From Candidatus Rokuibacteriota bacterium (GTDB taxonomy: Bacteria > Methylomirabilota > Methylomirabilia > Rokubacteriales > CSP1-6), in assembly GCA_003220685.1 (NCBI GenBank), contig QHTE01000057.1, positions 1 to 64,000 of the forward strand: 64,000 nt of DNA. Direction: 5' to 3'. A program made the position numbers and the translations under genes. Shown here in pieces: positions 2,133 through 17,344 of this stretch (the first letter of the stretch is position 1; every line of letters begins with the position of its first letter). Below the pieces are notes generated by a model that made no database searches, was not told the DNA's origin, and saw nothing but the letters and a program-made list of their open reading frames with translations.

Positions 2133-3362
2133 GTGGCCAGATTCAACGCGTTCTACCTGAATCTCAACCAGAGCTATCTCTTCGCCGAGATCCGGCGGCG
2201 GACCAAGGTGTTCACCGACGCCCACCCCGAGGTTCGACTGATCGATCTGGGCGTCGGCGACGTGACGCAGCCCCTGCCCGCGGCGGTCGTCCGCGCCATC
2301 CACGAGGCCGCGGACGACATGGCGCGGCGCGAGACCTTCAAGGGCTACGGGCCCTACGTCGGCTACGAGTTCCTGCGCGCCGAGATCGCGGCCCACGATT
2401 TCGGCTCGCGCGGCGTGAAGCTCGCCGTCGACGAGGTCTTCGTGAGCGACGGCGGCAAGAGCGACAGCGCGAACCTCCAGGAGATCTTCGCCCAGGACTG
2501 CGTGGTCGCGCTCATGGATCCCGTCTACCCGGTCTACGCCGACAGCAACGTGGTGGCCGGACGCAGCGGGCGCGCCGACGACAGCGGCCGGTATGCGGGC
2601 ATCGTCTACCTGCCATGCACCGCGGAGAACGACTTCCAGCCGGCGCTGCCCGACCGGCACGTCGACCTGATCTATCTCTGCTACCCGAACAATCCCACCG
2701 GCGCCGTCGCGACCCGCGAGGCGCTCACCCGCTGGGTCGAGTACGCGCGCGCCGAGGAGGCGGTCATCCTGTACGACGCGGCCTACGAGGCCTACATCGT
2801 CGGCCCGGAGGTCCCCCACTCGATCTACGAGATCGACGGCGCGCGCGAGGTGGCGATCGAGTGCCGGAGCTACTCCAAGAACGCGGGCTTCACCGGGATG
2901 CGTCTGGCCTACACGGTCGTGCCGACGGAGCTGCGGGGACGCGCCGCGGACGGTACGGCGATGAGCCTCAACACCCTCTGGACGCGCCGCACGGCGATGA
3001 AGTCCAACGGTCCGCCCTACATCATCCAGAAGGCCGCCGCCGCGGTGTACACGCCCGAAGGGCAGAAGCAGGTGCGGGCCCTGATCGATTTCTACCTCGA
3101 GAACGCGCGGATCATCGGCGCTGGCCTGGCGGCGGCCGGGTTCACGGTGTACGGCGGCCGGAACGCGCCCTACATCTGGGTCCGCACGCCGCGCGCGGTC
3201 TCTTCCTGGGATTTCTTCGACCGCGTCCTCGAGAAGGCGAACGTGGTCGGAGCACCGGGCGCGGGGTTCGGCCCGAGCGGCGAGGGCTACTTCCGGCTGA
3301 CCGCGTTCGGCTCGCGCGCGCAGACCGAAGAGGCGATCGAGCGCATCAAGACGCGGATGTGA
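2133..3362 (+). CDS. dapL: LL-diaminopimelate aminotransferase
   Basis: PLP enzyme that converts tetrahydrodipicolinate plus glutamate directly to LL-diaminopimelate, the short route to lysine and cell-wall DAP. At 409 residues it matches DapL length. The start VARFNAFYLNLNQSYLF aligns with the typical DapL N-terminus; the GTG at 2133 with GGGAGAG upstream was chosen over a longer ATG frame. Visible motifs: GVGDVTQPLP, GYGPYVGYEFLR, YPNNPTGAVA, and YSKNAGFTGMR, whose Lys is the PLP Schiff-base residue. Stand-alone gene, divergent from the peptide-transport operon; its 3' end overlaps the NERD gene tail by 17 bp in convergent orientation. Regular aminotransferases are less likely given the SKNAGFTG context. 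Confidence 0.93.
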   Translation: MARFNAFYLNLNQSYLFAEIRRRTKVFTDAHPEVRLIDLGVGDVTQPLPAAVVRAIHEAADDMARRETFKGYGPYVGYEFLRAEIAAHDFGSRGVKLAVDEVFVSDGGKSDSANLQEIFAQDCVVALMDPVYPVYADSNVVAGRSGRADDSGRYAGIVYLPCTAENDFQPALPDRHVDLIYLCYPNNPTGAVATREALTRWVEYARAEEAVILYDAAYEAYIVGPEVPHSIYEIDGAREVAIECRSYSKNAGFTGMRLAYTVVPTELRGRAADGTAMSLNTLWTRRTAMKSNGPPYIIQKAAAAVYTPEGQKQVRALIDFYLENARIIGAGLAAAGFTVYGGRNAPYIWVRTPRAVSSWDFFDRVLEKANVVGAPGAGFGPSGEGYFRLTAFGSRAQTEEAIERIKTRM

Positions 3363-4110
3363 CGGCGCCGCCCTCGACGGCGGCGGCACGCGGCCGCTGC
3401 GAAGTCGCCAGGGTCTGGGCGAGCTGGCTCGCCGTCGTCGGCGCCAGCCGGTGCTTGCGCGACAGCTCGACCACCACCTGGTAGAGCTGCGAGTAGCGGA
3501 CGACCGTCGCGGGCGCGTCGCTCGCCTCGACGTGGCAGAGCGGGTGGGTGAACACGACGATCGACTCCACCCAGCGCAGAACGGAGGCGGCCAGCTCCGG
3601 GTGCCGCTCGCTGAGGAAATACCGGATCGCGCACGCCGCGGAGTTGACGTGCTGGCTGATGTCCGCCCGGCGGGACCCGTTGACCGACCAGTTGTGCCCC
3701 CAGCACCGGATCTGCCCCGCGAGCCGCTTCGTCTCGATCACGACGACTCCACAGGGCCCGATCAACACGTGGTCGATCGCACCACGCGCCAATCCGAGCG
3801 TGACGTCGTTGACGAGCCAGTAATCGTCCCCCAGCCCGCCGAGCAGGTCGGCCACCAGACGCTCGCCGCGACGCCCGCGGCGCACGCGGCGCAGCAGCCG
3901 CGTCACGGGCCGGCCGAGCCAAAGCGCGATGACGATCGCGGCGAGCCCGACCGCCAGGCGCAGCAGGGTCGGATGACAGAGTCCGCCCCCCGCGTCGCAC
4001 ACGACGAGCGCGATCCCGGCGATGCCGAGCCCGATCAACCCGACGAGCGCCGCCCACAGCCGCTGCTCGCGGCGTTCTTCGTAGCTTTCGCCGACGCGTA
4101 CCAGGCGCAT
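3346..4110 (-). CDS. NERD-domain membrane protein
   Basis: 254 residues. Two hydrophobic segments (~20-40 and ~50-66) precede a nuclease-related domain at ~80-190: RRGRRGERLVADLL, WLVNDVTLG, AIDHVLIGPCGVVVIETKR and GQIRCWG. The DHV...VIETKR pattern is the NERD core, distantly related to restriction-endonuclease folds (D and E-x-K as possible metal ligands). Role unknown. It begins 1 bp after the roadblock gene stop and is the last gene of the chemosensory/Mgl operon, so it is co-transcribed, but whether it works in that pathway is not shown. The C-terminal tail (SQRPRAAAVEGG) is low complexity. Confidence 0.8.
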   Translation of the reverse strand: MRLVRVGESYEERREQRLWAALVGLIGLGIAGIALVVCDAGGGLCHPTLLRLAVGLAAIVIALWLGRPVTRLLRRVRRGRRGERLVADLLGGLGDDYWLVNDVTLGLARGAIDHVLIGPCGVVVIETKRLAGQIRCWGHNWSVNGSRRADISQHVNSAACAIRYFLSERHPELAASVLRWVESIVVFTHPLCHVEASDAPATVVRYSQLYQVVVELSRKHRLAPTTASQLAQTLATSQRPRAAAVEGGAVTSAS

Positions 4111-4111
4111 C

Positions 4112-4591
4112 TCAGCTGGGCGGCGTCCAGGCCGGACGCGATTCGGCGTCGCTCAGCGGCGCGGCGAACTCCGCCGGCTTCGGGCGCGAGCGGGCCTCGC
4201 CGAGCACCGAGCCGATCGCGCGGCTCGCCTCGCCGGCACAGAGCCGGACCATGCCCACCGTCGTCCGCTCGTCGAAGATCGCGAGCAAGATCGCCTCCTC
4301 GTCCACGGTCGACACGTGGATCGATCGCTTGGTGCCCTCGTGGAAGAGGACGGAGAACTCCGGCTCGCCGAGCAGCTGCGCCATCGCAGCGGTCGAGCTG
4401 AAGGCGGCGGCGGCGAGCGCCGAGATGGACACCGCATCGAGGGCCTGCGCGTCGCCGTCGCTTGCCAGGAGCTGCCCGCCGCGGTCGATCAGGAGCGCCT
4501 CGGCGGCGCCCGAGTCGCCGAGGAACTGCGTCAAGATCCCGTGGATGCGCGCCGCGTCCTCACGCTGGATGACGGTGTTACGAGACTTCAT
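4112..4591 (-). CDS. Roadblock/LC7-domain protein, likely MglA partner (MglB-like)
   Basis: 159 residues with one roadblock/LC7 fold: HGILTQFLGDSGAAEALLIDRGGQLLASDG, then helix ISALAAAAFSSTAAMAQLLG and strands FSVLFHEGTKRSIHVSTVDE, EAILLAIFDERTTVGMVRL. In Myxococcus and Thermus the roadblock protein next to mglA, MglB, is the GTPase-activating protein of MglA. Here it overlaps the 3' end of mglA by 14 bp, which suggests coupled expression and the same partnership; activity is inferred. Start ATG at 4591 has GGGAGAGG upstream. A short Pro-rich tail (AWTPPS) ends the protein. Confidence 0.85.
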   Translation of the reverse strand: MKSRNTVIQREDAARIHGILTQFLGDSGAAEALLIDRGGQLLASDGDAQALDAVSISALAAAAFSSTAAMAQLLGEPEFSVLFHEGTKRSIHVSTVDEEAILLAIFDERTTVGMVRLCAGEASRAIGSVLGEARSRPKPAEFAAPLSDAESRPAWTPPS

Positions 4592-5195
4592 GGCGCCTCT
4601 CCCGCCCGACACCGAACTCGCTCGCGAGCGCCATGCGCGAGACGGTGTTGAGCGTGTCGAACACCCCCTGGCCCTCGATGGCGGACGCCTCGAAGAACGG
4701 CACCCGCGTGGCCCGGCGATTCAGGACGAACTCGAGATAGGTCACCGGCGCCGGTTTCGCCAGATCGCGCTTGTTGTACTGCAGCACGTACGGGATCTCG
4801 TCGAGCGTCAACTCGTACTCGTGCAGGTTCGCCTCGAGATTGCGGAAGCTCTCCACGTTGTCCCGGAGACGCTCGAACTGCGAGTCGGCGACGAACACCA
4901 GGCCGTCGGCGCCCCGCAGCACCAGCCGCCGGGTCGCGTTGTACTGGACCTGCCCGGGAACCGTGTAGAGCTGAAAGCGTGTCTGGAAGCCGCGCACCGT
5001 GAGCGCCGACACCGGCAGGAAGTCGAAGTAGATGGTCCGGTCGTCGCCGGTCGCGAGCGAGATCATGTTCCCGCGATGCGAGTTCGGCAGACATCGATGG
5101 ATGTACTGGAGGTTGGCGGTCTTGCCGGCGAGCCCGGGCCCGTAGTAGACGATCTTGAAGTCGATGATCCGGTTCGCATAATTGATGACGGACAC
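4578..5195 (-). CDS. mglA: MglA-like Ras-superfamily GTPase
   Basis: Small cytoplasmic GTPase of the MglA family, which sets leading-pole identity and drives gliding or type IV pilus activity in Myxococcus. 205 residues, close to the usual ~195. G1 P-loop GPGLAGKT at 19-26; TVPGQ at 78-82, the MglA form of the G3 motif (TVPGQ rather than DxxG); G4 NKRD at 141-144; also DRTIYFDFLP and LVFVADSQ, both typical. GTG start at 5195, 3 bp after the upstream scaffold gene. Followed by an overlapping roadblock gene. All catalytic elements look intact, so it should bind GTP. Symbol given because the match to MglA extends along the whole length. Confidence 0.92.
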   Translation of the reverse strand: MSVINYANRIIDFKIVYYGPGLAGKTANLQYIHRCLPNSHRGNMISLATGDDRTIYFDFLPVSALTVRGFQTRFQLYTVPGQVQYNATRRLVLRGADGLVFVADSQFERLRDNVESFRNLEANLHEYELTLDEIPYVLQYNKRDLAKPAPVTYLEFVLNRRATRVPFFEASAIEGQGVFDTLNTVSRMALASEFGVGRERRHEVS

Positions 5196-5198
5196 GGC

Positions 5199-7361
5199 TC
5201 AGCCCCTCACCAGAGCCCCGAGCCGCGCCGCGGCGCGGTCGAGCTCGATCCGCGCGAGTCCCGGCCGATCGACGCGGCCGCCGCCGACCAGCATCGTGAC
5301 GCTGCCCGCCTCTCCGTCCAGCGCGCGCAGGATGACGCGACGCGTGCCGAGCTTGAGGATGACCGACGCCACCCGGCCGATCTCGGCGCTCGCGAGCGCG
5401 CCGAGCAGGTCGCGCGCGAACCGCGCCAGCGGCACCGCGTCGAGCGAGCTCGGGAGGAACAGGCACGCGCTGAGCGTCCCCGTGTGGTCGCGCAGCAGGG
5501 TCGGCGCCACCGGACCGAAGGCCGTCAACGAGCCGGCCAGCTCACGCACGGCGGCCGGCACACCGGCCGCTCGGAGCTCGATCCCCGCGGCAGTATCGTG
5601 CTCCGGGCGGGAGCGCCGGCCGTCGACGCCCTCGCCCTGCGCGTCGCGCGCCGCCGCTCGCGAGAGACGCTCGAGCCAGGCCAGCGACGCGCGCGAGGAC
5701 ACCGCAATCACGAGCAGGGCGCCATCGGCGTCGCGCGGCCCGAACGGAGTCAGAACGATCGTCGCGCCGGGTGCCGTCAAGGTGGCCTGGGTCACGCGCT
5801 CGGGCAGGCGGCTATCGGTCAGAAACGGCACGACGCGCACCGCGGTCCGCGCGACGGAGTCCTCGCTGAGGGTCGGCGCGACCACCGTCACGAGCGTCGT
5901 TCCTGCGCCGTCGCGCTGTCCGATCTCGAGCCCGTTCAACAGCGGCGCCAGCCGCGCGGCGATGCGTCGGGCTTGCCCGCTCCTGCCGTGCTCGGCGGAG
6001 ACGCCGGGGTGCGGCTCGGGCGCTGGCCGGGCTTCCTGGTCTTCGTCGGCCGAGTCGAACTCGGGCCCGTCCTCGATTTCGACGGCTCCGGCGACTTCGG
6101 CCACTTCGGCGACCGCCGGCGCGGATTCGGGAACGTCCTCACGAGCCTCTTCGACTTCGATCGGCGCCGGCGCAGCCGCTCGCTCCGTTTCGGCAGCGGC
6201 GGGCTCGGGCGGGGGCGTGTACGGCCGGAAGGGAGCCGGAAAATCGTCGAGCGCGTGGACGTCGGCCGGCGGCGTCGAGAGCGTCAGCAGCTCGGGCGGG
6301 ATCTGCGGCACCACCTCGTCGAGCGGGAGGCGCAGCGAGCCGTCAGGCAGGCGCTCCGCGATCTCCTCATGAGTCAGTGCGAGCTCGTCGAGCGGGAACT
6401 GATCGGCGACCACGTCCCACTTCACCGGAGCCAGTCCTTCACCGAGATGCGGCATGAGCAGCTTGCGCGGCACGAGGAGCGAGACGCCGGGACGCAGGGT
6501 GTCCTTCAGTCCCTCCCGTCCGCGAGCGAACATCTCGACCGGGAGCTGATCCGCGATCCGCGCGAACGGAACGCGGACCGTCGGCTCTGTCCGGTCGAGC
6601 GCCTGCTTCGCGGGGGGCGCGTCCGTCGACGTCGGAGCCTTCGGCGCCGGCCGGGTAGAGACGGAGGGCGACGGCGGCACGGTCGAGCGGCCCGCGACCG
6701 GCGCCGTGGGCGCCGCGGTCGTCGGGCTGCTGGACACCGCGGCCACGGCGGCGTGGCCGGCGCTGAAGCGGAAGGGCGTCGCGGGCGCCGGCGCGGGGAC
6801 GGGCGCGGGCGCCGCGGGAGGTCGGGACGGAGCCGGCAGCGTCAGCAGCGGCTTCGCGGCCACCGGCGCCGGGGCTAGCGGGAGGGCCTCGATTCGACGC
6901 TGCATCGCGACCGGTCGCGCTTCGTCGCGCGGCGCGCGGGGCGACGACAGCAGCGGACGCAGGCGGGCGAATACCAGCGGAGCTGCCGTCAGCTGGAGCA
7001 AGGTGACCGCGGGCGAGCCCCAGAGCGCGAAGGCGACCGCGGGGCCGTAATCGAGCAGGTCGGGGATCATGAAGAGGGCGCCCGTCGCCGCGACGAGCAG
7101 CCCGTGGAGCACGCACATCGCGGCCACCGCGACGCTCACGGCCCCGAGCGAGAGCGGGCGCACGCTGACCAGCGAGACGAGCACGTAGAACACGGGCGGA
7201 ATCACCAGCGCCGGCAGCACGAGCGCCGCCGAGGCTTCCAGCGGCGTCGCCCGGAGGCCGCGCACGTGGAGGGCCAGCACGGCGCAGGCGTAGAGCTCGA
7301 GCCCGAGCGCCAGCTCGAGCGCCCACACCACCCGCGCTCGCGAGCCGCGCGGCAGCGGCAT
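5199..7361 (-). CDS. Membrane-anchored scaffold with C-terminal roadblock-like region
   Basis: 720 residues; I do not recognise a named family. Order seen: about four membrane helices in 1-135; a long Pro/Ala linker (~140-240); a conserved-looking block at ~240-390 with short repeats of the type ADQLP.EMF, ADQFPLDEL, EIAERLPDGS and DEVVPQIPPELL; an acidic Pro-rich linker (EEAREDVPES); then two alpha/beta segments (~470-580 and ~600-720) with the strand-helix rhythm of roadblock/LC7 domains, e.g. LVTVVAPTLSEDSV and GTLSACLFLPSSLDAVPLARF. It sits between the receiver-roadblock protein (TGATG overlap at 7361) and mglA, so it may be a membrane platform for MglA/roadblock complexes. That role is inference; the roadblock assignment is by pattern only. 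Confidence 0.7.
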   Translation of the reverse strand: MPLPRGSRARVVWALELALGLELYACAVLALHVRGLRATPLEASAALVLPALVIPPVFYVLVSLVSVRPLSLGAVSVAVAAMCVLHGLLVAATGALFMIPDLLDYGPAVAFALWGSPAVTLLQLTAAPLVFARLRPLLSSPRAPRDEARPVAMQRRIEALPLAPAPVAAKPLLTLPAPSRPPAAPAPVPAPAPATPFRFSAGHAAVAAVSSSPTTAAPTAPVAGRSTVPPSPSVSTRPAPKAPTSTDAPPAKQALDRTEPTVRVPFARIADQLPVEMFARGREGLKDTLRPGVSLLVPRKLLMPHLGEGLAPVKWDVVADQFPLDELALTHEEIAERLPDGSLRLPLDEVVPQIPPELLTLSTPPADVHALDDFPAPFRPYTPPPEPAAAETERAAAPAPIEVEEAREDVPESAPAVAEVAEVAGAVEIEDGPEFDSADEDQEARPAPEPHPGVSAEHGRSGQARRIAARLAPLLNGLEIGQRDGAGTTLVTVVAPTLSEDSVARTAVRVVPFLTDSRLPERVTQATLTAPGATIVLTPFGPRDADGALLVIAVSSRASLAWLERLSRAAARDAQGEGVDGRRSRPEHDTAAGIELRAAGVPAAVRELAGSLTAFGPVAPTLLRDHTGTLSACLFLPSSLDAVPLARFARDLLGALASAEIGRVASVILKLGTRRVILRALDGEAGSVTMLVGGGRVDRPGLARIELDRAAARLGALVRG

Positions 7362-8233
7362 CAAAGAGCCCTCACGAGCTCCGGCACGGCCTTTCTCACG
7401 TAGTAGCGCACCTTGCCGAGCGCGCCCTGATCGCCGACAAGGACCGCCAGGAGTGCCGACGCGCCGACTCCGTGCAGCAGGAGCGTTCCGGCCTCGTATT
7501 CGAGGATCGTGCCGACCAGCGGCCCCTGGCCGAGCTCGCGGCCGATCCCGTCGGACGCTTCTGCGAGACAGGACGCGAGCGCTCCGGCCACCTCGTCGGC
7601 GTCGGGCGCAAGCTCCCCGGCCGTCTCAATGAGGAACCCTTCGCGATCCGCGAGCACGACGAAGCGAACGCCGGGGGTGTCGGCGAGTGCCTGCAGCCGC
7701 TGCTTGAGGCTCGGCTCGGATGGCGCGAGCGAGATCGGCGCGGGCGCGGACGCCGTCGCGAGTGGAGACTCCGCCATGGGTGTCGATGCCGCGACCGGCG
7801 CAGGCGCGACGGGCACGGGGGTGGTCGGGGCCGGCGCGGCGCTCGTCGGCTGCTTGCCTCCGTTCGGGCGCCCGGCGAGAAGCTTGTCGATCCTTCGCAC
7901 AAGGTCCTCGACGCCGAACGGCTTGAACATGACCTCGTTCGACCGCACCTCGGCGGCCCGCGCTTGGACCGTGCCGTTGTCGACTCCGGAGATGAGGAGG
8001 ACGGGGGTCGAGCCGAGCGCGGGATGGGTTCGCACGTACTGGCAGATCTGGTAGCCGTCCTTGTCGGGCAGGATGACGTCGCAGATCACGACGTCGGGCT
8101 GGTCGCGGTCGATCATCGCGATCGCCTCGGAGCCGGACGCGGCGGCGAGAACCTGGAGCCCGCGGCTCTCGAGCGCCTTCTCGACCACCTTCCTCACGCT
8201 CAGGCTGTCGTCCACCACGAGGACCTTCCCCAT
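7361..8233 (-). CDS. Response regulator with C-terminal roadblock/LC7 domain
   Basis: 290 residues. Receiver domain at 1-120 with intact acidic pocket (VLVVDDS), phospho-acceptor Asp52 in VVICDVILPDKDG and the conserved Lys in VMFKPFG. A Pro/Ala-rich linker (~125-175) leads to a roadblock domain (~178-290): LKQRLQALADTPGVRFVVLADREG, LASCLAEASDGIGRELG, GTILEYEAGTLLLHGV. No DNA-binding domain, so output is protein-protein: phosphorylation by the operon's CheA probably alters a roadblock interaction with MglA or another partner. ATG at 8233 preceded by AGGAGG. Receiver-roadblock fusions link two-component signalling straight to GTPase control. Confidence 0.85.
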   Translation of the reverse strand: MGKVLVVDDSLSVRKVVEKALESRGLQVLAAASGSEAIAMIDRDQPDVVICDVILPDKDGYQICQYVRTHPALGSTPVLLISGVDNGTVQARAAEVRSNEVMFKPFGVEDLVRRIDKLLAGRPNGGKQPTSAAPAPTTPVPVAPAPVAASTPMAESPLATASAPAPISLAPSEPSLKQRLQALADTPGVRFVVLADREGFLIETAGELAPDADEVAGALASCLAEASDGIGRELGQGPLVGTILEYEAGTLLLHGVGASALLAVLVGDQGALGKVRYYVRKAVPELVRAL

Positions 8234-8243
8234 CGACGTCCTC

Positions 8244-9029
8244 CTACAAAATTGGCGCGACGGTCGCGTCGGCGCGGCCCTCGTCGATTCCGGCGGCCGC
8301 GCTCAGCAAGAGCTGCTTGAGATCGCGATGGATCGTCTTCACGCCGTTGGCGGCCGCCGCCTCGAGCGGATTGAAGGCGAACGTCCCATTCGCCTCGCCG
8401 TACGCCGCTACCAGCAGGGCCGCGAACGCGGTCTCGCCGATCAGCCCGAAGAACTCCGCGTGCACGACCTGTCCGCGGTCGAAGAAGACGGAGCCGCGAC
8501 CCGACGACAGTGTGACGACCAGCTGCCCGGTCTTCGCGCCGAGCGCGATGGCCTGGGTGATGTCCGGCAGCTCCATTACCGCGAGCGAGCCGCGCAGGCC
8601 GTGAGCCCCGTCGTGCTGAAGGCCGGGCGCGGGCGGCTCCTTCGTGGCGACGGGCGCGGCCTTGCCGCGCCCGAGCAGGTTCGCCACCTCCGAGACGATG
8701 GCGGTCAGCGGCAGGTCGCCCGCCAGGGTCTGGTCCGGCTTGTCCTCGAGCATCGACGCGGCCGTCGCGTCGCCGGGGCTGGCCAGCAGGAGAAAGAGCA
8801 CACCCGTCATCAGGGGATCCTTGCGGACAATCGCGCAGAGCTCGTAGCCGTCGATGTCGGGCACGCCCACGCGGCTCACGATGAGATCGGGTCGGTTACG
8901 CTCGAGCATCGTCAGCGCGAAGGAGCCGCTGGTCACGGCGAGGACCTCGTCGATGCCGGCTTGGCCGAGCGCGGCCTGTAGCGCGGCGAGCGCCGTCCGG
9001 TCGGGATCGATCAGGATCACGCGCGGCAT
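8244..9029 (-). CDS. Degenerate receiver fused to DUF4388 (PatA-N-like) domain
   Basis: 261 residues. N-terminal receiver fold (~1-118) begins VILIDPDRTAL, but the phospho-acceptor Asp is replaced by Arg53 (DLIVSRVGVPDIDG) and no conserved Lys-Pro follows, so it cannot be phosphorylated in the usual way. After a linker, residues ~140-250 form a DUF4388 domain: GLRGSLAVMELPDITQAIALGAKTG, GSVFFDRGQVVHAEF, GETAFAALLV, GTFAFNP. DUF4388 occurs with receivers in gliding and chemosensory proteins. Myxococcus FrzS offers a precedent for a pseudo-receiver acting as a binding module near MglA. Lies 7 bp after cheA; function here is inferred. Confidence 0.82.
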   Translation of the reverse strand: MPRVILIDPDRTALAALQAALGQAGIDEVLAVTSGSFALTMLERNRPDLIVSRVGVPDIDGYELCAIVRKDPLMTGVLFLLLASPGDATAASMLEDKPDQTLAGDLPLTAIVSEVANLLGRGKAAPVATKEPPAPGLQHDGAHGLRGSLAVMELPDITQAIALGAKTGQLVVTLSSGRGSVFFDRGQVVHAEFFGLIGETAFAALLVAAYGEANGTFAFNPLEAAAANGVKTIHRDLKQLLLSAAAGIDEGRADATVAPIL

Positions 9030-9036
9030 CGGCGCC

Positions 9037-11952
9037 TCAGGCTCCCGCCCGGGCCGGCGTCGCGGCCGCGAGCGACTCGATCAGCTGGACGAAGCTCGCC
9101 TCGTCGACCGGCTTGGCGACGTAGTGCTCCACGCCCAGCTCGCGCGCGAGGTTCACGTGCTTGGCGCTGGTCCGCGTGGTGAGGACGACGACCGGCAGGT
9201 CGCACGTCGTCGGCTCGCGGTGGAGGTCGCGGATCAGCTCGTAGCCGTTGAGACGCGGCATCTCCAGATCCGTGACGATGACGTCGACCGGCTGCTCGGC
9301 CAGCTGCTGGAGCGCCTCGGCACCGTCCCGGGCGGCGACGACGTGGAACCCGGCGCGCTCGAGCATGCCGCCGACGAACTTCCGCACGCTGACCGAATCG
9401 TCGACGAGCAGGACGCGGCGCTTGGCCTCGGCGGCCGGCGCGACCACCGCCTCCGGCTCACGCCGGAGCGGCTCGGGCGCGGCGGCGCGCATCTCGAGGA
9501 GCTTCAGGGAGTCGAGCAAGAGGACGACCCGCCCCTGCCCCGTGACGGTGGCGCCGGAGAACGGTCCGATGCCCTGCAGGAACGCGCCGAGGTTCTTGAC
9601 GACGATCTCTTCCTTGCTCAGAAACTCCTCCACGACCACGGCCAGGGTCTTGCGCCCGGTCCGGAGGGCGACGATCGCGAGCGGGCCGTCGGCGTCGCAC
9701 GGCGGGAGCTGGAGCACGCGATCGAGCCGGACCAGGTCGACGCTCTCGCCCTCGATCTCGACCGATTCCACGCCGTCCACGCTGCGGACCTCCTCGGGCC
9801 GCACGTTGATCACGCCCTTCACGGCCGGGACGGGAATCGCCAGGGTCTGGGGACCCACGTGCACCATCAGCGCGTCGGAGATGGCGACGGTCAGCGGCAG
9901 ACGGATGCGGAAGCGAGTCCCGCGCCCGGGCTCGGTCTGCACCTCGATCTCGCCGCCGAGGCGACTGACGTTCGCGCGTACGACGTCCATGCCGACGCCG
10001 CGACCCGCGGCGGTCGTCACCGACGTCGCGGTGGTGAGGCCGGGGAGAAAGATCAGGTCGAGGATGTCGCGCTCGCCGAGCCGCGCGAGCGCCTCCGCGG
10101 TGACGAAGCCGCCGCGCCGCGCCGCCTCGCCGACCGCCTCCACGTCGATGCCGCGGCCGTCGTCCGCCACCTCGATGTAGATCGACCCGCCCTTGTGGGC
10201 GGCGCCGAGGTGGATCGTGCCCTGGGGCGGCTTGCCCTGTCGCCGGCGCTCTTCTTCGGGCTCGATGCCGTGCGCGATCGCGTTGCGCACCAGGTGGATC
10301 AGCGGATCGGCCATCAGCTCCACGATCGTGGTGTCCATCTCGACGGTCTCGCCCCGGACCTCGAGCACGACGCTCTTGCCGGCGGCGCGCGCGCCGTCCC
10401 GAACCATTCGCACGAACGGCGCGAAGAGCCGGCCGACCGGCACCATGCGGGCGCGGGTGATCTGGCCGCGCAGCTCGCCGCTCAGCCGCTGGACCCCGCC
10501 GGCGTCCTCGCGGACGACCCGCACCAGCCCGGTCAGCTCGTGCTGGATCTCCGTGAGGTCGCTCGAGATCTCGCCAACCCGGCGTGCGAGGAGGTTGAAG
10601 TCGTCGTAACGGTCGAATTCGAGCTCGTCGAAGAATCCCCCGAGCGGAGACGCGCCCGGCTCGTGCGAGCCGCCGCCGTGCGGACGGGCGGGCGGCACCA
10701 TGCGGTCGGCGTATTTCGACTCGAACTCGGCAACGGTCTGCGTCATGCGCGACTGCGTGAACGACAGGAGCTCGCCGGCCTGCTCGAGCTGGACCAGATG
10801 GCGCTCGAGGCGGCTCCGCGTGATCACGAGCTCGCCGACGAGATTCATCAGCGCGTCGAGCCGATCGAGGCTCACGCGAATGCTCGGCCGCACCCTCCGC
10901 GCCACGGCGTCCCGCGACGACCGGCTGCGGTCCCCGCGCGCGGCGCGCTCGGCGGCAGGTGCCGCGTGCTCGGCGGCGGGCACCACCGACTCGGCGGCGA
11001 CAACCGGCTCGAGAGGCGGCGGCGTCTCCGCCACCGCCGGTGGGCTCGGCACGGCGGCGCTCGCCGTCGCGGGCGCCTCGGCGGTCTCCGCCGCGACGTC
11101 TTCGGCGCTCGGCGACGACGCGACCGGTCCGATCGCCGGCAGCGCGTCGAGCAGCGCCATCGCCCGCTCGTAGGCGGCGGCGCGCGTGTCGGCGCGGTCC
11201 TCGCCGCTGCGCACCAGAAGGCGAAGGGCATCGAGTCCGGCGAAGACGGTCTCGATCGCGGCCCGATCCAGCGGCCGCTGTTGCTCGCGGATCTCGCCGA
11301 GCATGTCCTCGACCCGATGGGCGAGATCGCCGATCATCCCGCACCCGACGGTGTAGGCGGCGCCCTTGAGCGTGTGGACCGCCCGGAACAACGCCGCGAT
11401 CTCGGACTCGGTGGAGCCCTCGCCCTCGAGCGCGACCAGCGAGTGCGCCATCGCTTCGAGGTGCTCGATAGCCTCCGGGACGAAGTACTCGAGAACGTCC
11501 GACTGGTCGGCGAAGAAGTGATCCAGCTCGGCGAGCCGCCGTGCCGTCTCGTCGGCGGGCGCCTGGGGGGACGACGGGGCCAGCCCCGCGAGCGATTCAG
11601 CGATCGCCTCGGCGTCCTCGACCCCTGTTTCGCCGATGACGTCGAGCGCGGTCTTGAGCCAGAACACCATGTCGCCCAGCGCGCCGAACGACCGGCGATC
11701 CGCGCCGGGCGGCGCCGCGGCCACCCGCTCGACCGCCTCCTCCATCGCGGCGGCGAGGCCTGCCAGCCGGGGAAACCCGCTGAGCGCCGCGGAGCCGCGG
11801 AGGCGGTGGGTCACCACCGCCAGGTGCTCGGTCACCGCCTTGGTGTCCGGCGAGTGTCGGAGCGTGGCGAGGCCGTCCTCGACGGCGGCGAGGGTATCCC
11901 ACGCCTCCATCAGGAAGACACTCAGGAGAAACTGCCGGTCGCCGTCGGCCAC
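9037..11952 (-). CDS. cheA: CheA-type hybrid histidine kinase (two Hpt, catalytic core, CheW, receiver)
   Basis: 971 residues, central kinase of the pathway. Domains: Hpt1 (~1-115) with THRLRGSAALSGF, His49; Hpt2 (~150-260) with AVHTLKGAAYTVG, His193; Ala/Pro linker; dimerisation helices SLDRLDALMNLVGELVITRS; HATPase with LVRNAIAHGIEPEEE (N box), DDGRGID (G1) and GRGVGMDVV (G2); CheW-like domain (~675-810); C-terminal receiver RVLLVDDSVSVRK, IVTDLEMPRLNG, AKPVD. This multi-Hpt hybrid layout resembles PilL/ChpA of Pil-Chp systems and FrzE more than flagellar CheA. No cheR/cheB-type adaptation genes accompany it in this window. All catalytic motifs appear intact. Confidence 0.93.
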   Translation of the reverse strand: MADGDRQFLLSVFLMEAWDTLAAVEDGLATLRHSPDTKAVTEHLAVVTHRLRGSAALSGFPRLAGLAAAMEEAVERVAAAPPGADRRSFGALGDMVFWLKTALDVIGETGVEDAEAIAESLAGLAPSSPQAPADETARRLAELDHFFADQSDVLEYFVPEAIEHLEAMAHSLVALEGEGSTESEIAALFRAVHTLKGAAYTVGCGMIGDLAHRVEDMLGEIREQQRPLDRAAIETVFAGLDALRLLVRSGEDRADTRAAAYERAMALLDALPAIGPVASSPSAEDVAAETAEAPATASAAVPSPPAVAETPPPLEPVVAAESVVPAAEHAAPAAERAARGDRSRSSRDAVARRVRPSIRVSLDRLDALMNLVGELVITRSRLERHLVQLEQAGELLSFTQSRMTQTVAEFESKYADRMVPPARPHGGGSHEPGASPLGGFFDELEFDRYDDFNLLARRVGEISSDLTEIQHELTGLVRVVREDAGGVQRLSGELRGQITRARMVPVGRLFAPFVRMVRDGARAAGKSVVLEVRGETVEMDTTIVELMADPLIHLVRNAIAHGIEPEEERRRQGKPPQGTIHLGAAHKGGSIYIEVADDGRGIDVEAVGEAARRGGFVTAEALARLGERDILDLIFLPGLTTATSVTTAAGRGVGMDVVRANVSRLGGEIEVQTEPGRGTRFRIRLPLTVAISDALMVHVGPQTLAIPVPAVKGVINVRPEEVRSVDGVESVEIEGESVDLVRLDRVLQLPPCDADGPLAIVALRTGRKTLAVVVEEFLSKEEIVVKNLGAFLQGIGPFSGATVTGQGRVVLLLDSLKLLEMRAAAPEPLRREPEAVVAPAAEAKRRVLLVDDSVSVRKFVGGMLERAGFHVVAARDGAEALQQLAEQPVDVIVTDLEMPRLNGYELIRDLHREPTTCDLPVVVLTTRTSAKHVNLARELGVEHYVAKPVDEASFVQLIESLAAATPARAGA

Positions 11953-11974
11953 GCGCCGCCTCCCGTCACGGGAC

Positions 11975-13750
11975 CTAGGTGGCCAGCTTGAAGCGCGCGA
12001 GGCTCGAGCTGAGGGCCTCGGCCACTCGGACCACCTGGTCCATCGTCTTGCGCGTCTCGAGCACGGCCTTCTCCGTCTCGACCGCCACGCCCGCGATGGA
12101 CTGCACCGCGACCGCCCCGCCCTCGACCCCGCGCACCTGCTCCTGGGTCGCGTCCGAGATCTCCAGCGCCAGCGCCGCGGACTTCCGCGAGATCTCGCCG
12201 ATCTCGTGCAGCCGCTCGCCGGCCTCGACGGTGACCTTGAAGCCGGCCTCCACTTCGCGCGTACCTTCTTCCATGGCGACGACCGCCTGCTGCGTCTCGG
12301 CCTGCACCGACTTGATCAGCACGACGATGTCCTTGGCGGCCTTGCCGGAACGCTCGGCGAGCTTGCGGACCTCCTCGGCCACGACCGCGAAGCGCAAGCC
12401 CGACTCGCCGGCGCCCGCCGCCTCGATGGCGGCGTTGAGCGCCAACAAATTTGTCTGCGAGGCGATGTCCTCGATCGTGTTCACGATCTCGGAGATCTCC
12501 AGCGAGCGGTCCGCCAGGCTCTTGACCTTCTTCGAGATCCCCTGCACCTCGCCCCGGATGCGCTGCATGCCGGCGAGACTGGCGCGCACGGCGTGCTCGC
12601 CCTTCGTGGCGGAGTCGAGCGTCACCTTGGCGGCGGCCGCGGAGGCCTCCGCGTTCTCGGCGACTCGCCGCATCGAGCGGCTCAGCCCCACCATCGCGTC
12701 GCTCACGCCGACCGCGTCCCGCGACTGCGTCTGGGCGCCGCCGGCCGTGGCCTCCATCGCGCCGATCATCTCGGTGGCGCTCGTCAGGACTTGATGCGCG
12801 GCGTCGCGCACGTCGTTGATGATGATCGCCAGCTCGCCGACCATCACGTTGATGGCGTCGACGACGCTACCGAGGACGTCGGAGGTGACCTGGCCGCGCT
12901 TGGTCAGGTCGCCCTGCGCGATCTCGGTCGCGGTGTCGAGGAAGCGCGTGATGTTCCGCTGGAGCTCCTCGCGCTTGCGGCGCTCTTCGTCGCGCTCGGT
13001 CTCGGTCTGGACCAGCGACCGCAGGCGCACGACGGTGTCGTTGAACGTCGCGGCGAGCTGCCCGATCTCGTCGCGCGACTTCACGGTCACCAGTCGGGAC
13101 AGGTCGCCCTGCCCGACGCGCTCGGCGACGCGGACGACCTGAGTCACCGGCTTGGTGATCTGATGGGCGAAGACCGCGCCGGCCAGGATCGCCAGCAGCG
13201 CGACACCGCTGAAGACGAGCAGCAGGTTCTGCCCGGACCTGGCCGCCGCGGCGGTGATGATCGACCGGTCCATGCCGACGCGAACGGTTCCGAGCTGACC
13301 GGCCAGCACCGGCACGCCGATGTCGATGATCTGCTGGACCGCACCCGTGACCGGATCCTTGTAGGCGATCTCCCGGACCTGCTGCGCTGCCTCCCCGGGC
13401 ACCAGGTTGCGATCGACGATGCCGGCCGGGACCAGCGGCGAGAAGGTGTGGGCGACGAGCGTCTTCTGCGGGTCGTACACGATCACGTACTTGACGCCGT
13501 TGATGGCGGCGAACTGATCGACGGTCGCCTGCACGGTCGACGCGTCGCGCGTCAGCAGGAGATCGACGCCCGAGCTGGCCAGGCTCCTGGCAATGGCGGT
13601 TCCCTTGGAGGTGAACTCGTCCGTGAGGTTCGTGGTCAGCGCGCGCACCGAGATCCACCAGGTGATCGCCGCCAGCGGCATGAGCGTCACCGCCAGGAAC
13701 AGGATGATCTTGCCGAGGAGACCGAGTCGAAAAATCCGCTGCTTGCTCAT
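11975..13750 (-). CDS. Methyl-accepting chemotaxis protein (PilJ-like features)
   Basis: 591-residue transmembrane chemoreceptor. Helix 1 at ~10-32, periplasmic sensor of ~150 residues (single Cache-like; [18 protein letters not shown]), helix 2 at ~190-215, HAMP ([21 protein letters not shown]), a second HAMP-like segment ([21 protein letters not shown]) reminiscent of PilJ, then the signalling coiled coil with tip [20 protein letters not shown] and [15 protein letters not shown]. The tip reads [11 protein letters not shown] where most receptors have AARAGEHGRGF. ATGA overlap with the preceding periplasmic binding protein gene suggests the two work together. Signals to CheW/CheA in the same operon. 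Confidence 0.92.
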
Positions 13751-15048
13751 GCTTTCACCGCCGCCGCCCAGTCAGTGATGGGGGCCCATCGACCATTCAC
13801 CACTCTGGTGAAGTACACGTTGTCCAGTCCCTGATGCCGCTCCGGTCCGAACGTGAGGGGCGCGCCGATGCCGAGGTCGAAGCTCTTGAGCGATTCCAGC
13901 GCCTGCCGGAACGCCGCGCGGCTCGGGTTCGGCCCGGCGCGGCGCAGCCCTTCGACGATCACGCGGGCATTGACGAAGCCCTCGAGGCTCCGGAAGCTGA
14001 GCTGCTCGGGCGGATGCTTGGGGTCGCGCAGCGCCTCGGGCACCTGCGGGTTGTGCTTGTCCATCAGCGCCCGATACTCGACGACGCCGGGCAGGCTCAC
14101 GTCGTCGTAGCTCGGCACCACTTGCGAGTTGACGAGCGCCTGCGTGTAGTCGCGCCCCGTGGCCTGGCCGTGCTTGACGAGCAAGGCCAGCATTGCCTCG
14201 GAGCCGACGAACGACACGTTGGAGATCGGCACGGCCCAGCCCATGTCGCGCGCGGTCCTGACGAACGCGCCACAGCCCTGGTAGGCCCCGGTGCACAACA
14301 CCGCTTCGACGCCGGCCTGGCGGAGCGCCTGCACCGCCGGAGTCGTGTCGTCCTCGAACCGGGCGCCGCGGACGTAGGTGGCCTCGGCGGCGATCCTCGT
14401 GCCGTGCTGCGCGAGCCCGCGGGCGACGCCGTCGGTGCCGCTGCGACCGTAGGCGTCGATCTGGTAGTAGACGCCGAACCTCCGCACGCCCGTCTGCCAG
14501 AAGCGCTCGACCAGCGTCATCATCTCCTGACGGTACGAGGCGCGGACGTTGAAGACCTGGTCGAGGTACGGCTCCTCGCGCTGGGGCTGGGCGCCGGTGA
14601 AATTGCCCACCAGGATCACCTGGCGGTCGGCGTAGCGCTTGATCACCGGCAGGGCGCGCGTGAGCGTGGGCGTCCCGACGTAGTTCGAGAGGAAGAAGAC
14701 CTGCTCGCGCTCGATGAGCTCGATCGTGTTCTTGATGCACGGCGTCGGCTCGTAGCCGTCGTCGAGCGCGACGACCGAGATCGTGCGGCCGTGCACGCCA
14801 CCGCGCTGGTTGACCTCCGTGTAGTAGGCCATGGCGCCGCGGTAGAGCTCGCTCCCGAGACCGGCCGAGGGGCCCTTGAACGCGGCGCTCATCCCGATCC
14901 GGATGTCGTGGGTGTAGACACCGGCCGCGCCGCCGCGCGGATCCGCGAGGCTCCGGGCGGGCGCCTGACCCCAGGTCCGCCGGCTCAGGCCGAGAACACC
15001 GCCGGCCGCGGCCCCGGAAAGCACCTTGAGCATCGTCCGCCGCTTCAT
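13747..15048 (-). CDS. Periplasmic ligand-binding protein (LivJ-like, Peripla_BP_6)
   Basis: 433 residues, type I periplasmic binding fold of the branched-chain amino acid receptor family: [77 protein letters not shown]-terminus [21 protein letters not shown] is an export signal, Tat-like in its RRTML. Start ATG 15048 lies 7 nt after GGAGG; the ATG at 15054 is too close to it. No LivH/M/G/F transport genes are nearby and it is sandwiched between cheW and the receptor gene, so it probably senses a ligand and docks on the chemoreceptor instead of feeding an importer. Ligand unknown. Confidence 0.88.
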
Positions 15049-15050
15049 CG

Positions 15051-15518
15051 TCATTCCTCCTCCCGCTGCGCTTCTCTCAGCGCGCGCAGAAGCCGTCCGG
15101 GGTCGAGCAGCGGAACGAGCCGCTCGCCGTCGGGCAGGAACCCGAGCGCCCACCTCGCGTGGGGCTGCGGGCTCGACGCGGCGAGGGTCACGATTCCGCC
15201 GAACGCCTCGAGGCTGACGTCGCCGTCGATGACCAGCGCCACCTCGAATCCCTCGGCTTCCACGATCAAGGTCGCCACCTTGCGCGCGCCGCGGCGCGCG
15301 GCAAGCCCGAGGACCGCCCGTGCGTCCGCGATCGGCACGACGTCGCCGCGCAGGTTAGCCACGCCGACGAGATGCGCCGGCGCCAGCGGCACCGTGGTCC
15401 ACTCCTCGAAGATCGCCACCTCCCGCACCTGGGCGACGTCGATCGCGAACGGCTGGCCGGCGAGCGAGAAGACGCAGGCGCGAACCGCCGCGGAGGTGTC
15501 GAGGAGGCTGGTCGTCAT
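15051..15518 (-). CDS. CheW-like coupling protein
   Basis: 155 residues, one CheW domain: ACVFSLAGQPFAIDVAQVREV, PAHLVGVANLRGDVVPIADAR, then LIVEAEGFEVALVIDGD and RLVPLLDPGRLL. The NLRG.VVPI.D motif is diagnostic. Acts in the cytoplasm, linking the chemoreceptor to the CheA hybrid. Overlaps the preceding response-regulator gene by ATGA at 15515-15518 and its stop codon overlaps an upstream candidate ATG of the binding-protein gene. PilI-like by position in a Pil-Chp-type operon. Confidence 0.9.
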   Translation of the reverse strand: MTTSLLDTSAAVRACVFSLAGQPFAIDVAQVREVAIFEEWTTVPLAPAHLVGVANLRGDVVPIADARAVLGLAARRGARKVATLIVEAEGFEVALVIDGDVSLEAFGGIVTLAASSPQPHARWALGFLPDGERLVPLLDPGRLLRALREAQREEE

Positions 15519-15877
15519 CGCAGGAACCGCCGGACGAGCGCCAGGAGCTGATCGGCCGTGAAGGGCTTCGCCAGGTACTCGTCGGCGCCCTGCCGCATGC
15601 CCCAGATGCGGTCACTCTCCTGGTTTTTCGAGCTCACCACGATCACGCGCGCCTGCTTGATGCGATCGTCGCGACGTACGCCGCGGAGCGCCTCGAAGCC
15701 GTTGCGCTTGGGCATCACGATGTCGAGCAGCACAACGTCCGGCCGTTCCTTGGCGATCTTTTCCTCCAGCTGGTCCCCGTCCAGGTACGTCACCACGTCG
15801 TACCCGGCCGACCGGAGGATGGTTTCCATCACCTGGAGCTCGGAGTAGGCGTCGTCGACTACCATCACCTTGGGCAT
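15515..15877 (-). CDS. Single-domain response regulator (PilH/PilG/CheY-like)
   Basis: 120 residues, receiver only. Acidic pair Asp8/Asp9 (MVVDDAYS), phospho-acceptor Asp52 (VVLLDIVMPKRNG), Ser pair at 82-83 (VVSSK) and Lys104 (LAKPF) are all present, so it should accept phosphate from the operon's CheA. The MPKRNGFEAL context resembles PilH/PilG regulators of twitching motility. First gene of the 11-gene operon. ATG at 15877 chosen: GGGAGG stands 10 nt upstream, whereas an alternative TTG at 15886 abuts it. Confidence 0.9.
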   Translation of the reverse strand: MPKVMVVDDAYSELQVMETILRSAGYDVVTYLDGDQLEEKIAKERPDVVLLDIVMPKRNGFEALRGVRRDDRIKQARVIVVSSKNQESDRIWGMRQGADEYLAKPFTADQLLALVRRFLR

Positions 15878-16175
15878 CGAGCGCAAGCCTCCCGTGGCGT
15901 TCTGCCGTCGTGTCCGCCATATGTGCCTCGGTGCAACCCATCTGCCAGCGCGAGCGTCGGTAGGGCGCGGCTTTGCGCTCGAACAAACGCGCTAGTAAGG
16001 CGACTCAAATCGCTCCTGGGTTGTCGCGGTGACAATTCGTCCCCCTTCCATGACAAGTTCTGTCAGAACCGTGCCGTGCCAACGTGGCGCCACATCCTCA
16101 ACCGTGCGACAGGTCAGGGGCCGATGGGCGCTGATCGCAGGTGGCGAAGATCTTGAAGAGCAACGAAAACGCACC
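15878..16175. promoter_or_regulatory. Divergent intergenic control region of the chemosensory operon
   Basis: About 300 bp without a convincing gene, separating the 11-gene minus operon from the plus-strand TPR/roadblock pair; promoters for both must lie here. A short inverted repeat TGACA-N5-TGTCA sits at 16051-16065, and another TGACAA half-site at 16030-16035. This segment is a little less GC-rich than its surroundings. No clear -35/-10 pair was found. A regulator binding here is only a suggestion. Confidence 0.4.
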
Positions 16176-16955
16176 ATGCTGTTCGCACAAATCTGGCGCT
16201 GGGTCCGAGGCAAGCAGCGACAGCCGACGAGCGCACTGGTGTTCCGGCGGGCGCAACGCCTTCGAGAGCAGGGACGCTACCGGCGCGCGGCCGCACTCGT
16301 GGACGAAGCGCTCATCCACGATCCAAGGAACGTAGTGGGCCATCTGCTGGCGGCCTCGCTCCACATGGTCCTGCGCGAGAGCGGGCGCGCCAGGACCTCG
16401 TTCGAGAGGGTGCTCGCGCTGGAGCCGACGCAGCCTCGAGCACTGCTCGGCCTCGCGCGAATCGAGCTCGAGGATGGCGAGACCGCGGCGTGCTGTGCGC
16501 TACTCAGCCGAGCCCTCGCACGCTATCCGGACTTCCCAGAGGCGCGCGCCGTGCTCGAGGTCGCCCGCGGACTCCTAGCCACCAGCGACGCGAAACGCTA
16601 CGCCACCTCCGACGGGGCGGTCGAGGCCGACCGTCTGCGGCTACCCACCGAGAGCCGCGAAGCGCTGTTCGTGCGAGCCGACGCGACCGTGATCGTCGCC
16701 GTACCGCGTGAACCGCGGACCGACGCAGTCGCCGCCCGCGCCGTGAAGCTTTCGAAAGTCGCAACGGCGATGCTCGGGCGTGCCGGGCTGGGTCCGTTGC
16801 GTCACGCCGTCATCGAGGCCGCGGCCGAGACGACGTACCTTCGCTCGGACGACACGGCGCTCCTGACTCTGTCTTTCGACCGCAACATGAAGAGCGCGAC
16901 GGCTCTCCAGCACCTCGAGAGGGTGTGGCGCAGGTTCTGCTCGGAGTTCGCATGA
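16176..16955 (+). CDS. TPR protein with C-terminal roadblock-like domain
   Basis: 259 residues. N-terminal half holds TPR-type helices: ALVFRRAQRLREQGRYRRAAALVDEAL, HLLAASLHMVLRESGRARTSFERVL, ALLGLARIELEDGETAACCALLSRAL. The C-terminal ~100 residues (ALFVRADATVIVAVPREPRTDAV, then TYLRSDDTALLTLSFDRNMKSATAL) have a roadblock-like strand/helix order. Start ATG 16176 has a weak ribosome site; longer in-frame starts exist but would run through the likely promoter. Its stop overlaps the next roadblock gene (ATGA). TPR proteins such as SgmX recruit MglA in Myxococcus; a similar adaptor role is a reasonable guess, not shown. Confidence 0.72.
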   Translation: MLFAQIWRWVRGKQRQPTSALVFRRAQRLREQGRYRRAAALVDEALIHDPRNVVGHLLAASLHMVLRESGRARTSFERVLALEPTQPRALLGLARIELEDGETAACCALLSRALARYPDFPEARAVLEVARGLLATSDAKRYATSDGAVEADRLRLPTESREALFVRADATVIVAVPREPRTDAVAARAVKLSKVATAMLGRAGLGPLRHAVIEAAAETTYLRSDDTALLTLSFDRNMKSATALQHLERVWRRFCSEFA

Positions 16956-17344
16956 GCACCGCCGCCGTCGTCACGCACCCCGCCGACGGGCGCGACCTCC
17001 GCGGCGTACTCGCCGAGCTTCTGAAGCTCGACCACATCATCGGCGGGCTCGTCGTCGCTCCCGACGGGCTCCTCATCGCCGCCAACCTTCCGCGCGAGGT
17101 CGAGGCCGAGCCGCTGTCAGCGGTGGCGGCCGCGCTAGGGCGCGAGCTCGAACTGCAGGGCCCACGCCTCCGGCGTGGAACGTTCCCGACGGCGCACTTC
17201 GCGAGCGTGAGCGGCTCCGCATTTCTCGGCAGCACACCCGTGGGCTACATCGTGCTGCTCGGCGAACCGCGCGCGGACTGGGAAGCGGTCCGCTCGGAAC
17301 TGCGCGGCGCGCTCGGAAGGGTTTATCGCGCCTGGGCGGGGTGA
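16952..17344 (+). CDS. Roadblock/LC7-domain protein
   Basis: 130 residues, single roadblock domain: DLRGVLAELLKLDHIIGGLVVAPDGLLIAANLP, LSAVAAALGRELELQG, TAHFASVSGSAFLGSTPVGYIVLLGEP. Start ATG at 16952 overlaps the TPR gene stop as ATGA, replacing a longer possible start at 16925. Probably pairs with the upstream TPR protein and, by family precedent, with MglA-type GTPases. Lacks the N-terminal features of the MglB-like protein at 4112-4591 and is likely a diverged copy. A short GC hairpin (CCCC-TTC-GGGG) at 17407-17417 follows the gene but has no U-run. Confidence 0.82.
   Translation: MSTAAVVTHPADGRDLRGVLAELLKLDHIIGGLVVAPDGLLIAANLPREVEAEPLSAVAAALGRELELQGPRLRRGTFPTAHFASVSGSAFLGSTPVGYIVLLGEPRADWEAVRSELRGALGRVYRAWAG

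Follow-up and report, generated by a model that had tools for sequence, protein, structure and literature searches.

A chemosensory gene block joined to an MglA/MglB GTPase module in Rokubacteria, with type IV pili as a possible output

Gene content of the block

Positions 3346 to 17344 of contig QHTE01000057.1 from a Candidatus Rokuibacteriota bacterium (GenBank assembly GCA_003220685.1) hold a block of chemosensory (che) genes beside genes for the Ras-like GTPase MglA and the roadblock protein MglB; the whole 64,000-nucleotide stretch analyzed here (positions 1 to 64,000 of the contig) is referred to as the window. Our analysis supports a genetic joining of the che system and the MglA/roadblock module, and the block is a real, conserved system made of known parts in a new arrangement. 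The host genome is a draft of 6.09 Mb in 137 contigs, 87.6% complete, and the closest named contigs are those of Candidatus Rokubacteria/Methylomirabilota, as expected of a rokubacterium. An earlier note, made from the sequence alone, had described eleven tightly packed minus-strand genes and a divergent pair; all eleven open reading frames were found in place, with gaps of -103 to +22 bp if the listed starts are used, and a 142-bp gap (15887 to 16028) sets cheY apart from the divergent genes for a TPR protein and a roadblock protein. From 3346 upward, the Pfam matches run NERD, Robl_LC7, Ras, none (g04), Response_reg with Robl_LC7, Response_reg with DUF4388 (PATAN), CheA domains, methyl-accepting chemotaxis protein (MCP) domains, Peripla_BP_6, CheW, and Response_reg, in agreement with the identities that the note had given to the regulator, CheW, binding protein, multi-Hpt CheA, receiver fusions, MglA, and NERD protein. 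The host draft has two CheW-domain matches in all, and since both fall within the block, this is its sole recognizable chemosensory system.

On the input side, a CheA with dimerization, ATPase, and CheW domains shares one locus with a CheW and an MCP, the composition of a Che-type system. The single-domain receiver CheY (g11, 15515 to 15886, minus strand, as are g01 to g10; Response_reg E = 7.8e-27) keeps its phospho-Asp in 25/25 aligned sequences and is followed by CheW (g10, 15051 to 15518; CheW E = 1.5e-20). The periplasmic binding protein (g09, 13747 to 15153; Peripla_BP_6 E = 2.2e-48) has Leu/Ile/Val-type binding proteins as its nearest relatives among solved structures (PDB 4kv7, E = 4e-47); an ATG near 15054 is a likelier start than the one listed and would erase most of its overlap with cheW. 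By Pfam, the MCP (g08, 11975 to 13750) comprises sCache_3_2, HAMP, and MCPsignal domains, and the PilJ domain was unmatched, so that its earlier description as a PilJ-like receptor gives way to one with an sCache sensor. The kinase (g07, 9037 to 11952) is a hybrid CheA in which Pfam matches Hpt in two stretches, H-kinase_dim, HATPase, CheW, and a C-terminal Response_reg. Among the 27 sequences of at least 600 amino acids (aa), the second Hpt His, the ATPase Asn, and the receiver Asp are each conserved in 27/27 and the first Hpt His in 23 of the 24 with a residue there; residue counts here and below omit sequences under the set length, such as the split CheA of genome G067 and the split g05 of G005.

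The receptor and the binding protein appear to vary together. In 24/24 loci that have the binding protein gene and a receptor no shorter than 400 aa, identity to the window is 64 to 97% for the MCP sensor, about the same as for the signaling half (61 to 94%). At two of three loci without the gene (L107, L127), the sensor is unalignable (22 to 23%), whereas the signaling half keeps 57 to 74% identity; at the third (L121), the sensor is 55% identical to that of the window. The che tree places L107 next to L127 as its sister (support 73), so their sensor divergence may be a single event. This co-variation fits a binding protein g09 that serves receptor g08. Neither CheR nor CheB was matched by Pfam among the block proteins of the window, as the note had observed, with CheB not searched for genome-wide, and the one CheR of the host genome is located outside the operon. 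As a defining trait, their absence did not stand: cheR lies between the MCP and CheA genes inside the operon of three relatives (G054:C146:21091-21648, G055:C70:16686-17240, and G014:C110:4709-5254), and the window's lineage may therefore have lost it. Some chemosensory systems lack both cheR and cheB, so their absence does not decide the matter. The receptor of the window shows no match to a strict MCP methylation motif, a result on which we do not rely.

MglA (g03, 4578 to 5195) matches the MglA structures 3t12 (E = 2.3e-69, over residues 1 to 193 of 205) and 5ymx (E = 2.3e-63), the best non-MglA structure following at E = 1.2e-5; over the solved MglA proteins matched, E values span 7e-63 to 2e-69. 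Arg53 and Gln82, which we take to have catalytic roles, are kept together with Thr78 in 21/21 intact MglA sequences. In the 22nd (L112, genome G058), the frame is disrupted before about residue 63, with Thr78 and Gln82 kept; this disruption, at about 7373 to 7863 of L112, is either an assembly error or decay. Thr78 replaces the usual residue, according to parts of PMC3000849. The adjoining roadblock protein (g02, 4112 to 4612), correctly placed by the note among the Robl_LC7 proteins, can now be sharpened to MglB: the eight best of ten matches to solved structures are MglB, with Myxococcus xanthus MglB (6hjm) at E = 6.2e-22, and its score against the NCBIfam MglB model is 68.4 of 200 bits, below the cut-off. 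By sequence, MglA and MglB are thus true family members. The gene mglA overlaps mglB and lies 3 bp from g04. Beyond mglB, the NERD protein (g01, 3346 to 4110; NERD E = 4.6e-15), with two hydrophobic segments by hydropathy, is encoded in 7/9 genomes of the window's genus and at no locus read outside it. It is a genus-level passenger; its place in the chain, as the note had it, was not supported, and it was rejected as a core part of the block.

Between CheA and MglA lie three further genes. The receiver-roadblock fusion (g05, 7361 to 8233; Response_reg E = 3.5e-23, Robl_LC7 E = 1.5e-11) keeps its phospho-Asp in 27/27 sequences, and in profile comparison, its roadblock half matches g13 and MglB at probabilities of 94.9% and 85.5%, making g05 a candidate link from CheA to MglA. 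The second fusion proposed by the note (g06, 8244 to 9029) is likewise present and joins a receiver to a PATAN domain (DUF4388) by Pfam, although its phosphorylation site is lost, with Asp in 0/22 sequences that have a residue there (5/27 are gapped). It is therefore a pseudo-receiver, and the PATAN arm cannot accept phosphate from CheA in the usual way; CheY, the receiver of CheA itself, and g05 are the predicted possible acceptors. The membrane protein (g04, 5199 to 7364), which has no Pfam match, shows by alignment and hydropathy N-terminal hydrophobic segments, a Pro-rich linker, a conserved QLP/QFP domain, and a C-terminal pair of domains, C1 and C2, that weakly resemble each other (53.8% in profile comparison) and whose fold is unproven. 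The strongly conserved domain, also without a Pfam match, carries the motifs QLP, LLVP, QFP, and LPLDEV and matches twice in relatives L013, L114, and L118. Profile comparison of the g04 C terminus with MglB and other roadblock domains gave no match above the 15% print limit. Roadblock hidden Markov model (HMM) matches to it were weak and confined to few orthologues, with bystander MCP sequences scoring up to E = 0.002, and the g04 profile matched sequences of solved structures at E = 0.65 and worse only.

On the plus strand, the divergent pair comprises a TPR protein (g12, 16029 to 16955; TPR by Pfam) and a roadblock protein (g13, 16925 to 17344; Robl_LC7 E = 6.8e-4). Both were present as the note had described, with the g13 match falling below the curated cut-off. 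Roadblock HMM domain E values for g12 orthologues extend from 6e-5 up to more than 1, with 0.0018 for the window copy, so the C terminus of g12 may hold an additional, weakly matching roadblock-like region. Its start codon is uncertain, as many orthologues begin later.

Conservation and loss across Methylomirabilota

This type of MglA was found in 22/95 Methylomirabilota genomes from 10 genera, at 325 to 427 bits (233 bits for the broken copy of G058). Five carriers belong to the window's genus, the window included, and sixteen are spread over eight other genera of the same family; the last, G048, is a metagenome-assembled genome (MAG) with 8% contamination from another family. CheA lies on the same contig as MglA, 5 to 8 kb away, in 20/22 carriers; in the remaining two, it is cut by the contig end (G048, locus L029, which shares a contig with L124 and was left out of the protein alignments) or the block is spread over two contigs whose ends fit the gene order (G063; L115, L116). 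Carriers G053 and G083 yielded no binding protein gene, and the contig of G048 stops short of its position; no mglB was found beside mglA in G083, and g04 was not detected in G057, though the space there suffices. In G068 and G014, the operon is cut before mglA and is uninformative on that gene. With these exceptions, the neighborhood check that the note had called for finds the che-MglA order conserved in relatives, and it is thus not unique to this contig; recurrence in 10 genera is more than chance. At 11/16 MglA places read in other families of the class (4 to 20 kb each), MglA and MglB occur without a CheA kinase match, receiver domains lying near four of the 11. The order is mglA-mglB in the window; in sister families of the class, MglB leads at all eleven loci read. 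Control stretches of 12 to 18 kb at other CheA loci of the phylum (L022, L023, L026) contained no MglA.

The TPR gene follows MglA closely. At E ≤ 1e-15, g12 is found in 20/22 carriers of this MglA versus 1/73 other genomes (Fisher p = 3e-17, kinship ignored), and the contig of the single positive non-carrier, G060, is cut before mglA; it was not detected at that threshold in carriers G066 and G083. In G010, G048, G056, G058, G061, G063, G064, G065, and G067, by contrast, it is the mglB end that carries the TPR pair. Because the TPR gene tracks MglA carriers, the pair sits at either end of the block, and it is lost together with mglA and mglB, g12-g13 most likely belongs with MglA.

That loss is seen in four genomes of the window's genus (G002, G004, G005, G008), which keep cheY through to the membrane protein gene on unbroken stretches from which mglA-mglB is missing. 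All four are also without the TPR-roadblock pair, which lies on the opposite side of the che genes, with a TPR remnant in G008; a g12 match in G004 (E = 0.008) was taken as noise. In a tree of six che proteins, G002 and G004 (support 100) branch apart from G005 and G008 (support 67), which implies at least two losses of mglAB and g12-g13 if there was no regain. The single MglA match of G005 (G005:C472, L014) was rejected as a relocated copy, as it sits among TPR, PATAN, and MglB genes of Gemmatimonadota type and groups with Gemmatimonadota MglA. G005 was omitted from the 22 carriers, and its 338.5 bits are inflated, the L014 sequence being in the query alignment. L014 itself is a 4.3-kb contig in a Rokubacteria MAG with a TPR-PATAN-MglB-MglA run of Gemmatimonadota type, through either contamination or gene transfer.

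A related block in Gemmatimonadota

A scan of named genomes yielded at least 585 MglA relatives, the best 80 of which were read up to 10 kb on each side, often less. Among the 77 of these best 80 that lie outside Rokubacteria, a clear CheA fell within the stretch read at L085 (Gemmatimonadetes) alone, in the run REC-CheY-CheA-CheC-TPR-PATAN/TPR-roadblock-MglB-MglA. A CheA-like match in L067 (E = 2e-4) was not counted, as a CheA family search found none in that genome (G099). In L082 (WOR-3), an MCP-type signaling domain at 10715 on the opposite strand adjoins mglBA, and the stretch shows no CheA match; the sole CheA match of this WOR-3 genome is on contig C13 of G098.

Relatives of the L085 CheA (E ≤ 1e-60) occur in 169/298 genomes drawn from Gemmatimonadota. 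We read 81 CheA loci, comprising L085 and 80 regions, L144-L223 (the top 40 following G095, 20 selected in part for large contigs, and 20 more, namely 19 lower-listed ones and G096). MglA follows on the same strand about 4.0 to 8.2 kb past CheA in 63/81 loci, always with CheY, CheC, TPR, and PATAN, and MglB was detected in 49/63; among the 18 loci without MglA, 12 meet a contig end. In the single-contig genome of L187, the order is cheY-cheA(with P2)-cheC-TPR-PATAN-mglA-DnaA-like-PATAN/TPR, the two genes downstream of mglA encoding a DnaA-like AAA ATPase and a PATAN/TPR protein. Like the block in Rokubacteria, that of Gemmatimonadota carries CheA, CheY, PATAN, TPR, often MglB, and MglA on one strand; it differs in having CheC, a single-Hpt CheA without a receiver, no binding protein among the genes scanned, a large TPR protein, and MglB before MglA. 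An MglA tree was built from 156/169 loci tried plus the window, leaving out sequences that contained stops or were shorter than 150 aa, with 20 later-read loci outside it. In this tree, Rokubacteria form one clade (21/21, support 0.994) apart from 50 Gemmatimonadota sequences, which group weakly (support 0.115) along with the stray L014. The separate MglA clades and the different che make-up suggest that che and MglA were joined independently in Rokubacteria and Gemmatimonadota.

This second joining bears on whether the neighborhood could be a product of chance or hitchhiking, mglAB having landed behind a che operon to which it is functionally unrelated. Such an origin would explain why mglAB can be lost while the operon stays, and the NERD gene shows that passengers occur in this operon. 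We nevertheless consider it highly improbable, given that MglA is retained in 10 genera, that mglA is packed so closely between mglB and g04, that mglAB is co-lost with the unlinked g12-g13 pair, and that a separate joining took place in Gemmatimonadota.

Comparison with known systems

Among the closest known systems is the Frz and MglA/MglB/RomR system of M. xanthus. Like the block, it has MglA, MglB, and a kinase of che type; its pseudo-receiver partner, FrzS, and its TPR protein, SgmX, correspond to g06 and g12. In M. xanthus, Frz and mglA are encoded apart and are genetically linked via RomR (parts of PMC4316618 and PMC3441718), whereas here they adjoin. Unlike Frz, the block has a receiver-roadblock fusion as its candidate link, a binding protein with an sCache receptor, and a two-Hpt CheA; RomR and RomX were not searched for. 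The Pil-Chp system of Pseudomonas and the Pix/Pil/Tax systems of Synechocystis resemble the block in CheY, CheW, MCP, a hybrid multi-Hpt CheA, and a PATAN-receiver protein and have a type IV pilus output. To our knowledge, the Pil-Chp and Pix/Pil/Tax operons are without a GTPase module. Their PATAN proteins are termed response regulators, whereas the PATAN receiver of the block lacks the phospho-Asp; PATAN is present in PixG, PilG, and TaxP2 (portions of PMC10519157). The actinobacterial conservon (CvnA-D) also brings together a kinase, a roadblock protein, and an MglA-family GTPase (sections of PMC4316618). However, its kinase is an ordinary histidine kinase, it has no response regulator, and its GTPase belongs to MglA Group 2; with CheA, an MCP, CheW, and receivers, the block was rejected as a conservon.

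The genome context of MglA has been surveyed over 1,611 genomes in PMC4316618, parts of which place Group 1 members in Gemmatimonadetes, note PATAN neighbors, and describe Group 1 neighborhoods as widely varied; its main text contains no word that begins with CheA. Excerpts of PMC3441718 report that MglA, MglB, RomR, and Frz co-occur and in those excerpts mention no joint operon. No description of a che-mglA operon was found in open-license PMC full-text literature, in keeping with the note's suggestion of an undescribed system.

Elsewhere in the window, a MASE1 histidine kinase gene (19482 to 21173) lies about 2 kb past the TPR-roadblock pair, and the genes for DNA topoisomerase VI subunits A and B are adjacent on the minus strand (52179 to 55457). 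DNA topoisomerase VI is best known from archaea.

Proposed signaling route and alternatives

We favor, with slightly better than even confidence, chemosensory signaling that has the MglA/MglB polarity GTPase as its dedicated output and that controls surface movement driven by type IV pili. This proposal draws on gene content and order, the conserved catalytic and phosphorylation residues, the co-loss of mglAB and g12-g13, the co-variation of g09 and the receptor sensor, the absence of FliM, and the presence of pilus-motor-type genes; all protein contacts and directions of effect are ones that we infer. In this route, the periplasmic binding protein g09, of amino acid/amide type, would deliver its ligand to g08, the MCP, at the sCache sensor, and CheW and CheA (g10, g07) would be tuned, probably without methylation in this lineage. 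CheA would then phosphorylate CheY (g11) and the receiver of g05. The roadblock half of phosphorylated g05 could pair with MglB (g02) or bind MglA (g03) and so alter local MglA-GTP, with the complex anchored by the membrane protein g04. MglA-GTP might in turn work through g12-g13, with the PATAN pseudo-receiver g06 as an arm to PilB, and the site of pilus extension would thereby be decided. PATAN regulators contact PilB in Synechocystis (parts of PMC10519157), and in M. xanthus, MglA acts via the TPR protein SgmX, aided by the pseudo-receiver FrzS (parts of PMC11580455).

Several observations weigh against a pathway dedicated to MglA and pili. No MglA match (E ≤ 1e-3) exists in G002, G004, and G008, where che genes are present, and G005 keeps its che genes with a single MglA match on a stray Gemmatimonadota-like contig. 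All four have intact frames for CheA, MCP, and PATAN, and g05 is intact in G004 and G008, where its roadblock domain is 82 to 83% identical to that of the window, compared with 82 to 85% in carriers G001 and G007. In the other two, g05 is split over two frames (L016 10168-11032 in G002; L018 6160-6914 in G005), a state seen in 2/4 MglA-less genomes versus 0/21 carrier loci, and g04 is also split in G005. These splits may be draft error rather than decay, since carrier G067 has its CheA split over two frames (L120, about 7832 to 9575), itself an assembly error or decay. Six uninterrupted che loci in Gemmatimonadota (L210-L213, L218, L223) are without detectable MglA, and the PilT family is found in 95/95 Methylomirabilota genomes. 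Because four congeners keep che genes after its loss, this MglA is dispensable for part of the output. The whole chain from ligand to GTPase that the note had drawn is upheld in that its genes are joined, though not all of the signal need run through MglA.

An alternative is that the che genes send their signal chiefly to the pilus motor and bypass MglA, by way of the PATAN protein, the receiver-roadblock fusion, and the membrane protein, as in Pix/Pil, with mglAB and g12-g13 as a droppable accessory polarity module tuning the same machine. The four congeners keep g06 and g04 along with their che genes in the absence of mglAB and g12-g13, two of them with a conserved g05 roadblock, and PATAN regulators bind directly to PilB in Synechocystis (parts of PMC10519157). 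The lost phospho-site of g06 speaks against it, however, as this arm has no usual phosphate uptake from CheA, as do the frame-split g05 in the other two MglA-less genomes, the retention of mglA in or beside the block in 9 other genera, and the inclusion of MglA in the Gemmatimonadota che block. On balance, we regard this alternative as unlikely.

With regard to the pilus itself, FliM was found in 0/22 genomes with this MglA, 7/95 genomes of the phylum carrying it, and the host has a pilB-pilT-pilC-type cluster (L139) with T2SSE(MshEN), T2SSE, and T2SSF matches, the second gene also matching the PilT family at 495 bits. Since the host combines this cluster with a lack of FliM, control of type IV pili is a likely output, favored here and named as a possibility in the note, and the parts list would point to pilus placement. 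The block could also act as proposed with a different output, such as gliding, exopolysaccharide, or another polarized process. PilT-family ATPases in all genomes of the phylum prove little, so that the presence of type IV pili does not discriminate, and PilT was rejected as a marker; we know of no motility phenotype for any host considered here, which leaves room for such an output. The pilB-pilT-pilC-like cluster of the host argues against it (Glt gliding genes were not searched for), and known systems route both PATAN and MglA to PilB (parts of PMC10519157 and PMC11580455), making a non-pilus output improbable.

Implications

If the proposed route through MglA is correct, the receiver-roadblock fusion would be a direct phospho-switch on MglA/MglB, a connection for which Myxococcus needs separate, unlinked genes. 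The chain comes packaged with its candidate transmitter: g05 joins a receiver that can be phosphorylated to a roadblock domain of MglB type, and the step could thus be rebuilt from a few purified proteins. Since the Gemmatimonadota block occurs in single-contig genomes (L184-L187), cultured carriers suited to genetics may exist. Somewhat more tentatively, and at a little less than even confidence, we suggest a general, undescribed kind of chemosensory system with a Ras-like GTPase, rather than a motor-binding CheY, as its primary output, assembled independently at least twice: Rokubacteria would have used an MCP, binding protein, and receiver-roadblock fusion, and much of Gemmatimonadota CheC, PATAN proteins, and a large TPR protein. 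MglA is encoded with chemosensing genes well beyond the myxobacteria. That che genes and a Ras-like polarity switch lie side by side in uncultured soil Rokubacteria, and that a second phylum has its own version, suggests a recurring way to steer surface movement.

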